Source: a virus. From it: a stretch of DNA of 26,901 nucleotides. The notes under the pieces are model-generated. The model was given only the letters and a program-made list of their open reading frames with translations. It was not told the DNA's origin and searched no databases. Shown piece after piece: positions 5,894-22,507 of this stretch. The position numbers were made by a program, and so were the translations under genes. The stretch covers positions 1-26,901 of the IMG/VR virus record IMGVR_UViG_3300033182_000952; one strand, given 5' to 3'. Numbering within the stretch: the stretch's first letter is position 1; each line of letters opens with the position of its first letter.

Positions 5894-6130
5894 TTATTTT
5901 TTTAAGTAGTTTACTATACGCTCTTTTTCTCTAGTTGTCAACCACTCATCTTCGCCCACGAACGTCGGACATTCTTCAATTAGGCTATCTAATATGTCTT
6001 TAATAAGATACAAATCTTTTTTAAGATCAAAAGAAACGTAGCCGTCATTATACGGACTGCTACATTCTCTTGCAATCTGTCTTAAATTAGATATTATTTG
6101 AGGAACATCTGCTGGTTGTTTATACCCCAT
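5894..6130 (-). CDS. small protein of unknown function
   Basis: This encodes 78 residues, mostly predicted helix, with VPQIISNLRQIARE near the start and KDLYLIKDILDSLIEE centrally, then WLTTREKERIVNYLKK. The ATG at 6130 overlaps the stop of the GroES-like gene (TGATG), and AAAGGA lies 4-5 bases upstream. A GTG at 6133 is in frame but too close to the ribosome binding site. No membrane segment or enzyme motif is visible. Confidence 0.7.
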   Translation of the reverse strand: MGYKQPADVPQIISNLRQIARECSSPYNDGYVSFDLKKDLYLIKDILDSLIEECPTFVGEDEWLTTREKERIVNYLKK

Positions 6131-6534
6131 CACGTCCTTTCCATAAACACGGAAGGATCAATGTCATAACCTGCGCCATCTTTATATTCTGTTCCAATAT
6201 AATTGATATCAGGTTCCTCATCGCTCCACCCAATAATTGATTTTGTTTCTACTTTCTGCAATTCAATAATTTCTCCATTATCAAATTGCAAGGGAAATTT
6301 ACGAGTCCATCTACCATGTTCTACTAAGATCCAATCTCCTACTTTCACATCTTTTTGTTCTGGACCAACAGCAAACACCTTACCCCATCTTGGTTTAATC
6401 CCATGATTTTTGCCGTCGTCGGATCCAATTATAATTCCTGTTTTGGTTTTCATTTCACCAAATTCCATATCTTTTACTAACACGTCGTCGTGTATAGCTC
6501 TAATATTTTTAACTTTAATTGGATTAATAACCAT
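6130..6534 (-). CDS. groES: GroES-like co-chaperonin (T4 gp31 type)
   Basis: This encodes 134 residues, against about 97 for bacterial GroES and 111 for T4 gp31. The GroES beta-barrel pattern is visible: AIHDDVLVKDMEFGE at the start, a mobile-loop region with KTKTGIIIGSDDGK (about 29-42), RWGKVFAVGPE, then KVGDWILVEHG. The C-terminal 25-30 residues past SIIGWSDEEP are an extension. It would cap the host GroEL for folding phage capsid or other proteins. GAGGAA lies 5 bases before the ATG. It is followed directly by the 78-residue gene. Confidence 0.87.
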   Translation of the reverse strand: MVINPIKVKNIRAIHDDVLVKDMEFGEMKTKTGIIIGSDDGKNHGIKPRWGKVFAVGPEQKDVKVGDWILVEHGRWTRKFPLQFDNGEIIELQKVETKSIIGWSDEEPDINYIGTEYKDGAGYDIDPSVFMERT

Positions 6535-6543
6535 AAATTCCTC

Positions 6544-6768
6544 TTATTTCTTACGTGACGGTACGTCTTCTTGTGCTGCTCTTGGATTTTTCTTATAGTA
6601 GTCTGCTAGAATTTGTTCTCTAGTTTTAACAATTTTTCCGCCCTTGCCAAGTTCATCACCACGAGCATTAACTTTCATATTTCCTACAGCAGGAAGCAAT
6701 TCATTTTTGAGGTTAAGTTTTTCCATATCAACTTCTTTACCTCTCATACTTCTGTATACTTTACCCAT
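6544..6768 (-). CDS. small conserved-type T4-like phage protein
   Basis: This encodes 74 basic, polar residues beginning MGKVYRSMRGKEVDMEKL. Later NARGDELGKGGKIV is followed by TREQILADYYKKNPRA. I recognise this as the type of short conserved protein seen in marine T4-like phages but know no function. A strong AAGGAG ribosome binding site precedes the ATG by 6 bases and is itself coded within the end of the 28-residue ORF upstream, whose stop overlaps this start (TAATG at 6770-6766). Confidence 0.75.
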   Translation of the reverse strand: MGKVYRSMRGKEVDMEKLNLKNELLPAVGNMKVNARGDELGKGGKIVKTREQILADYYKKNPRAAQEDVPSRKK

Positions 6769-6854
6769 TATTTTCTCCTTTTTAATTTACGGCCTTCCAA
6801 AATACGTTTAGCATTACGGCCTGACACGCTACCTGGACTTCTTCTTTTCGAAAT
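6768..6854 (-). CDS. 28-residue basic peptide with apparent ATT start
   Basis: An 87-base frame (28 codons plus TAA) fills the gap between the two neighbours. There is no ATG, GTG or TTG at its head, but a perfect AAGGAG (6867-6862) sits 7 bases before an ATT at 6854-6852. The frame opens 1 base after the upstream stop and ends with a TAATG overlap on the next start. The peptide is 12/28 Lys or Arg and contains SPGSVSGRNAKRILEGRK, which looks like real coding rather than noise. AUU starts are known in bacteria (infC, pcnB). It may be an RNA- or DNA-binding peptide; that is inference. Confidence 0.55.
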   Translation of the reverse strand: MSKRRSPGSVSGRNAKRILEGRKLKRRK

Positions 6855-6855
6855 T

Positions 6856-7365
6856 TTAAATCTCCTTGAAAAATTCTTCAATTGGTATACTGTATTTAAT
6901 CGGGTTTATCTTGTGTACGCCTAGTAAATGGAGAACATAACTGGCTACACTGGATCCACGTCCTACACCCCAAACTATGTTATTTTTTCTAAGTGTGTCT
7001 ACTATATATTTCATTTGACGGAGTAACTGAATCAAATTTCTATTTTGAAATTCTTTCAGTTCTTGCTCCATACGCTGATATTCCGGAGTTTCTATTACAC
7101 GTAAATCCGTAATTTCAAAACCAGTTTCATCGCAAACACGACTTTTTAGAAAATTAATAATATCATACTTTTGATATTCTTCTGGCATATACCAGTTTGT
7201 ATGATCGATACTTTGTGGAGGAATTGGATAATTTAGATGCTCTTCTTCTATTCTTTTTAAGTAATCATCTAGATTTTCTGAACATAAACAATTGTCTAGG
7301 ATATCAGGTCCAAACCGAACCACTCCATTGATTAACTGTTCTATATTATTTGTTTTAGTCCACAT
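6856..7365 (-). CDS. short protein resembling part of DNA polymerase III alpha (DnaE)
   Basis: This encodes 169 residues. The C-terminal part, PEYQRMEQELKE (about 94-105) followed by IVWGVGRGSSVASYVL (130-145) and then HKINPIKYSIP, resembles the start of the C-family polymerase palm, where bacterial DnaE has a GPGRGS motif and then a (D)P-x-xY segment. The protein ends about where DnaE would go on to its catalytic PDFDID aspartates, which are absent, so it should not be a polymerase. It could be a regulatory or decoy fragment, or a stand-alone domain binding nucleotides or DNA. The ATG overlaps the upstream gene by 11 bases. The family match is read by eye. Confidence 0.75.
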   Translation of the reverse strand: MWTKTNNIEQLINGVVRFGPDILDNCLCSENLDDYLKRIEEEHLNYPIPPQSIDHTNWYMPEEYQKYDIINFLKSRVCDETGFEITDLRVIETPEYQRMEQELKEFQNRNLIQLLRQMKYIVDTLRKNNIVWGVGRGSSVASYVLHLLGVHKINPIKYSIPIEEFFKEI

Positions 7366-21227: not shown

Positions 21228-21252
21228 GTGTCCTTAAGGAGATAAATTTTTT

Positions 21253-21498
21253 ATGATTAAGTTTATTAAATCACTATTTGGTTTTAAAGAACCAGCAACG
21301 AAATGGGAACCGTTGCCTGTGACTCCATCAGAACCTGCTCCTGCAGAGGTTCCTGAAGAAGTTGCAGTTGTTGCAGAACCTGCTCCAAAGAAGAAGGCGG
21401 CTCCTAAAAAGAAGAAGGCTGCTCCAAAGAAGAAGGCAGCACCTAAAAAGAAGACCGCTCCTAAAAAGAAGCGTGCTCCTAAGAAGACTGCTGAATAA
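21253..21498 (+). CDS. histone-H1-like Lys/Ala/Pro-rich protein
   Basis: This encodes 81 residues in three parts: a short hydrophobic and basic start (MIKFIKSLFGF), an acidic Pro/Glu/Val/Ala hinge (about 23-43), and a basic C-terminal tail (45-79) made of APKKK repeats, five to six of them. The tail resembles histone H1 C-terminal tails and bacterial AlgP/HctB-like proteins, so it probably binds DNA or RNA in an unfolded form. The hydrophobic start could instead tie it to a membrane. AAGGAG lies 11 bases before the ATG. It overlaps uvdE convergently by 20 bases. No folded enzyme domain is present. Confidence 0.8.
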   Translation: MIKFIKSLFGFKEPATKWEPLPVTPSEPAPAEVPEEVAVVAEPAPKKKAAPKKKKAAPKKKAAPKKKTAPKKKRAPKKTAE

Positions 21499-22507
21499 GA
21501 TAGTTTTCGTACAACAACTTGCTGGCAAGGTTTTTCGCTTTCGATTCGACCATAATGTCAGCATAGTCCAAGAAACTTAGAGCCCATTCGTTAACGGCTG
21601 TATTCCACATATAGTCAGAATGGGCCCTAAGTTTTTGTTTTTTGTAGCCGTTCAATAAAAGATATTCCATATCCGGCCGTTCGTTATTTGGCCATTCTTT
21701 TAGCAATTCTTCTCGACTTACTGAATAATGTATAACTGGACGTACACCACGCCAGGAATCGGCTATACGAGAATATCTATCGTCGGTTGGTGAAATGTAT
21801 TCACCTGTAGCAACCCAGTGATGGTGTATGTCGAGTACCAAGGCAACGTGATTTTGGAGTTCGAGACTAGCGTCGATGCCCCACGACATTTCGTCGTTCT
21901 CAATGGTGATTGTGTTTCGTGCTTCTGGGGATAACCTTGGGAGGACATCGAGTATACCTTGTGGGCCTCGTCTACCCGATATATGGACGTTAATCTTGAA
22001 GTCTTGCCATTTTTGTCCGTAGCCCATCCATCTCGCCATGTCAACATGATACTCGAACTCCTCTATAGAACGGCTGACAATATCGTCTGACTCGCTCGCC
22101 AAAACAGTAAATTGACCAGGGTGGAAACTAAGACGAACATCACTTGTCCTAGCCAACTCGCCCACCCTAGCGAATTCTCTCTCACAATAAGCAACCACAT
22201 CAGGCTGACGCCAGAAATAACTCCAATCGTTGTGAGTATAAACAGGAAGAATGTCACTACTAAGACGAACCATTCTAAGCTCATGTTCTAAACTCCCTAC
22301 ATAGTCTACGAGTCTATAAATTGCTTTAATGTTGTGTTCCATAATGTCCCACAACCTTTGTTCAGCAACATCACGTGTTTGATTATTAAGCCAAGTTACT
22401 GTTGTTGCCTTAGTGTTTAAAGGTCGCTGAATTTCTTCAAGCAATTTCTTTTTAATATTTTGATCGTGATGCATGTATTTGCATGCAAAACCAATACGCT
22501 TAATCAT
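21479..22507 (-). CDS. uvsE: UV-damage endonuclease (UvsE/UvdE)
   Basis: This encodes 342 residues of a UVDE-type TIM-barrel endonuclease, which nicks 5' to UV photoproducts such as cyclobutane dimers in an alternative excision repair. Motifs visible are GFACKY at the start, SFHPGQF (127-133), NVHISGR (173-179), IENDE (202-206), LDIHHHW (225-231) and, later, HYSVS. These contain the His, Glu and Asp residues that bind the metals in this family, so the enzyme looks active. The ATG at 22507 overlaps the cupin stop (TAATG); an in-frame start 10 codons earlier lies inside the cupin gene. T4 uses DenV for the same task, so this is a different repair solution. Confidence 0.93.
   Translation of the reverse strand: MIKRIGFACKYMHHDQNIKKKLLEEIQRPLNTKATTVTWLNNQTRDVAEQRLWDIMEHNIKAIYRLVDYVGSLEHELRMVRLSSDILPVYTHNDWSYFWRQPDVVAYCEREFARVGELARTSDVRLSFHPGQFTVLASESDDIVSRSIEEFEYHVDMARWMGYGQKWQDFKINVHISGRRGPQGILDVLPRLSPEARNTITIENDEMSWGIDASLELQNHVALVLDIHHHWVATGEYISPTDDRYSRIADSWRGVRPVIHYSVSREELLKEWPNNERPDMEYLLLNGYKKQKLRAHSDYMWNTAVNEWALSFLDYADIMVESKAKNLASKLLYENYLIQQSS
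21516..21535 (+). terminator. possible terminator after the Lys/Ala/Pro gene
   Basis: AACTTG pairs with CAAGGTT around a CTGG loop, with one bulged G, and the T-run at 21531-21535 follows. It lies about 18 bases past the stop, inside the convergent uvdE gene. The stem is short, so the call is weak; phoH ends in a similar embedded arrangement. Confidence 0.35.

Follow-up and report, generated by a model that had tools for sequence, protein, structure and literature searches.

The locus described here raises two questions: whether a 28-codon frame that apparently begins at ATT, lying between two phage genes, encodes a protein, and whether its translation could begin at AUU, as it does in the infC and pcnB genes of Escherichia coli. 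The frame lies in a 26,901-nucleotide stretch of viral DNA (IMG/VR record IMGVR_UViG_3300033182_000952, positions 1 to 26,901), hereafter called the window. An earlier note had drawn attention to a basic 28-residue frame with an AAGGAG sequence 7 nucleotides before the ATT, 12 lysines or arginines among its 28 residues and a TAATG overlap with the next start. All of these observations are confirmed, and they apply to the minus strand, which the note did not specify. A plus-strand reading of the interval is ruled out, as the frame there carries stops. In the order of transcription, the features of the locus are the following.

6856..7365, minus strand: upstream gene of 169 amino acids encoding a fragment of a DNA polymerase III alpha (DnaE)-like domain (PF07733, phrog_11127); stop codon TAA at 6858-6856
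6879..6881, minus strand: in-frame TTG upstream of the ATT, rejected as a start; it shows no Shine-Dalgarno (SD) pairing, is a synonymous wobble of an Ile codon of the upstream gene and also occurs in genomes without the micro-gene
6862..6867, minus strand: first SD sequence, AAGGAG, spaced 7 nucleotides from the ATT; pairing with the anti-SD of -8.5 kcal/mol, which places it with the strongest starts in the window
6768..6854, minus strand: micro-gene with ATT at 6854-6852, 28 codons ISKRRSPGSVSGRNAKRILEGRKLKRRK and TAA at 6770-6768, assigned on the basis of six ATG-started homologues and purifying selection
6775..6780, minus strand: second SD sequence, AAGGAG, in the last codons of the micro-gene (its KRRK tail), 6 nucleotides 5' of the ATG of the 74-amino-acid gene; -8.7 kcal/mol
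6544..6768, minus strand: downstream conserved gene of 74 amino acids, function unknown (phrog_14844)
6130..6534, minus strand: GroES-like co-chaperonin (PF00166), third gene of the conserved block

The DnaE-like gene ends one base ahead of the ATT, and the final A of the micro-gene's TAA is also the A of the downstream ATG at position 6768, which creates the TAATG overlap. The first SD sequence doubles as Lys-Glu codons of the DnaE-like protein and is inherited: the same site serves the 74-amino-acid gene directly in most relatives, which lack the micro-gene. The DnaE-like gene matches only positions 23-95 of the 260-position PF07733 model and is thus a fragment; it is nonetheless conserved in many phages as a short gene of its own, next to the 74-amino-acid and GroES genes. 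Elsewhere in the window, a 107-codon open stretch without ATG, GTG or TTG (21234-21557, minus strand) overlaps other frames and is probably spurious. Our searches give no backing to the earlier description of the virus as marine T4-like. A search of the phage collection found no DNA match to the window. A more fitting description of the phage is as a relative of a jumbo-phage-like lineage, which has the block of DnaE fragment, 74-amino-acid gene and GroES in common with Vibrio phage 2.275.O. Gene order around the junction is the same in that phage; unlike in the window, no micro-gene was found in its record.

Scanning IMG/VR with both flanking proteins recovered more than 100 distinct junctions. 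In nearly all of them, the DnaE-like gene passes directly into the SD sequence and ATG of the 74-amino-acid gene (for example, AAGGAGATATAAAATGGGT). A few junctions hold 80-100 additional nucleotides (loci L124, L142, L162/L163 and L166/L276, together with the more diverged L347), and all of these encode the same peptide family. L124, L142, L162/L163 and L166/L276 were found through their junctions and with a degenerate pattern for NAKRI-x-GRK; two further matches to the pattern, L161 and L255, were judged to be chance. The family thus defined comprises seven members, the window copy and six in other viral contigs, with lengths of 26-33 amino acids. Six of the seven, the window copy among them, sit between the DnaE-like fragment and the 74-amino-acid gene. 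The seventh, L167, is ectopic and directly adjoins a tmRNA (locus L167:5888-6329, minus strand), which ARAGORN calls permuted and which matches both the permuted and the betaproteobacterial Rfam models. The L167 contig appears phage-like from a reading of its open frames, which include nrdB, glutaredoxin and AhpC/AhpF-like genes. When about 130 related records (among them RaK2, PA5oct and Vibrio phage 2.275.O) were searched with profiles, no copy turned up beyond those already known.

The peptides share the core S-x-R-x-S-P ... A-K-R-[IM]-L-x-G-R-K, which the window copy also carries, and their consensus can be written MSKRRSPxSxAxRNAKRILxGRK. Across the seven sequences, 11 of the 23 core residues are invariant, and the codons for 10 of these 11 vary synonymously. 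Where it could be measured in pairs with the window copy, dN/dS is approximately 0.12-0.24; the pair with L163 falls outside this set because its synonymous sites are saturated. The window copy and L124 differ at 18 nucleotides over 66, yet 18 of 22 residues are identical. In a simulation of 50,000 random mutants, no mutant kept as many, and 53% gained a stop. A family profile finds the window frame at an E value of 9.5e-17, with the window's own copy among the six rows from which the profile was built. Conservation of the peptide through synonymous changes, which the earlier note had named as support for a gene, is therefore what alignment with relatives reveals, and we judge on this comparative evidence that the 28-codon frame is a genuine gene, conserved as a protein.

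This protein has no model in the libraries that we searched. With four members as queries, Pfam, PHROGs and NCBIfam (including small ribosomal proteins) returned no family up to an E value of 10, and neither the PDB nor phage records gave a match to the micro-protein. One hit (E 8), to the tail protein of a Shewanella phage, is attributed to chance. By their shared core, the micro-proteins are assigned to a so far unnamed phage family.

The distribution of the micro-gene is patchy. In a tree of 106 distinct loci built from three flanking genes, from which L347 was left out, five carriers are scattered among non-carriers. Five changes are needed to account for this pattern, at least four of which are forced by well supported branches, and thus gain or loss has recurred. 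The scatter could have arisen if an old gene was lost several times, or if phages exchanged it. The nearest kin of the window, L081 (84% amino acid identity) and L003, are without the micro-gene, as is L170, the sister of the carrier L124, even though the 74-amino-acid proteins of L170 and L124 are 97% identical. This last contrast might mean that the micro-gene was recently acquired or lost, or that the junction recombined. Judged by its patchy distribution, the micro-gene is accessory and presumably dispensable.

The sequence around the micro-gene offers a possible route for such changes. Two SD-start modules flank it, the first in the tail of the DnaE-like gene (Lys-Glu or Lys-Gly-Glu codons) and the second formed by its own KRRK tail, AAA AGG AGA AAA TAATG. 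Removal of one module restores the arrangement of non-carriers, and recombination between these short repeats is a plausible mechanism of gain and loss. We propose that the micro-gene was placed between the SD sequence and the start codon of the conserved 74-amino-acid gene, and that it would have brought within its tail a second SD sequence to replace the site formerly used by that gene.

The start codon of the window copy stands apart from those of its relatives. All six homologues have complete 5' ends and carry ATG exactly at the position of the window's ATT. The ATT lies one base away from the relatives' codon and, in collections that may lack close copies of the window, occurs in a single metagenomic contig. 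Because all six use ATG, it is a one-off derived change in this genome and not a regulatory start that has been kept. The closeness of the upstream stop to the start is preserved in relatives, in the forms TAATG, TAAATG and TAATATG. Probing for other non-ATG starts behind AAGGAG at gene ends turned up unrelated genes and short frames attributable to chance, and nothing else.

The peptide might instead begin elsewhere, or might extend the DnaE-like fragment through a frameshift or readthrough, since the frame is open upstream of the ATT to a TTG at 6881 (37 amino acids) and beyond. The earlier assertion that no ATG, GTG or TTG heads the frame must be qualified to that extent. This TTG lies inside the upstream gene, and no SD pairing is predicted for it, against a value of -8.5 kcal/mol at the ATT. 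The TTG results from a synonymous Ile codon (ATT-GAA, where most relatives read ATA-GAA), and it is also found in L003 and L081, neither of which has the micro-gene. An internal GTG at 6827 pairs at only -3.1 kcal/mol with poor spacing, and its use would forfeit the conserved RRSP. Finally, carriers differ in how the micro-gene is phased against the upstream gene (TAATG, TAAATG, TAA-N-ATG), so a frameshift or readthrough product conserved among them is excluded. We therefore regard these alternative origins of the peptide as very improbable.

A derived one-base change in a gene that looks intact implies that AUU is used, that the gene was lost very recently, or that the base is wrong. A change from ATG to ATT might have rendered the gene silent or nearly so, leaving what would be the first stage of decay of a dispensable gene. 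The uniqueness of the ATT to the window fits such a loss, as do the scarcity of carriers (5 of 106 distinct loci, scattered) and the lack of the gene in the closest kin. Conversely, the intact frame has neither stops nor frameshifts, its SD sequence, core residues and TAATG junction are likewise undamaged, and replacements are not in excess. The window copy differs from the majority at 3 of 22 residues, within a range of 2-7 over all copies, and is thus no more diverged than the ATG-started copies. A very recent loss would look identical; on balance, we consider start-codon loss unlikely. It is rather doubtful that the true codon is ATG, hidden by an erroneous base or by mixed strains in the metagenome assembly. 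Only one base in a single contig would have to be wrong, but the stretch is otherwise free of signs of error and the neighboring frames are intact.

The most likely outcome is that AUU is used at a reduced level. The S. aureus small gene cvfC1 starts at AUU with a strong SD sequence, and non-AUG starts in that organism give approximately 10% of AUG output (PMC13009471). An SD sequence aids reinitiation, and IF3 acts against starts at non-canonical codons (PMC2268962). Reduced use of AUU is favored because of the analogy with S. aureus non-AUG starts and the known help that an SD sequence gives to reinitiation. After the ancestral ATG changed to ATT in this phage, translation would have continued at a lower level, enabled by the strong SD sequence at 7 nucleotides, and ribosomes that finish the DnaE-like fragment, whose stop lies one base before the AUU, might reinitiate there.

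The composition of the product suggests binding to nucleic acid or to the ribosome. An AlphaFold2 model of the 33-residue homologue L124, in which only the helix is informative, predicts a helix at residues 7-20 preceded by Ser-Pro (mean pLDDT 82). From composition and this predicted helix, we infer a short basic helix that would bind RNA or DNA and act as a dispensable helper during infection. Jointly, then, our best explanation is an accessory basic nucleic-acid-binding micro-protein translated at a reduced level from AUU, to which we assign a probability of about 0.6.

It is also conceivable that the change from ATG to ATT was adaptive, such that the phage uses AUU to hold back a potent basic micro-protein that binds nucleic acid or ribosomes, and ties the level of this protein to IF3 activity. 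If so, the micro-protein would rise only when initiation fidelity drops during infection. We consider this improbable, and the earlier suggestion that the AUU serves to sense or evade IF3 control is unsupported, as the odd start is not conserved and the relatives all use ATG. The window shares with infC, pcnB and cvfC1 the position of an AUU initiator behind a strong SD sequence, and low, IF3-sensitive output would be expected. In those three genes, however, the odd start is established as natural, whereas the window's ATT is a single derived case among ATG homologues. The AUU start of cvfC1 is conserved among staphylococci (PMC13009471).

The micro-gene resembles the unannotated small basic frames of other phages (ORFan micro-proteins) in being short, basic, patchy in distribution, predicted to form a single helix and missed by annotation. 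It differs from them in belonging to a family with a conserved motif and a fixed locus that Pfam, PHROGs and NCBIfam do not model. These sequences thus define a conserved phage micro-protein family without a model in standard libraries, and they illustrate how a small gene may be slotted between an SD sequence and a start codon while supplying a replacement SD sequence for the gene downstream. The natural contrast between ATG and ATT provides a clean case in which to ask whether AUU suffices as the start of a phage gene.
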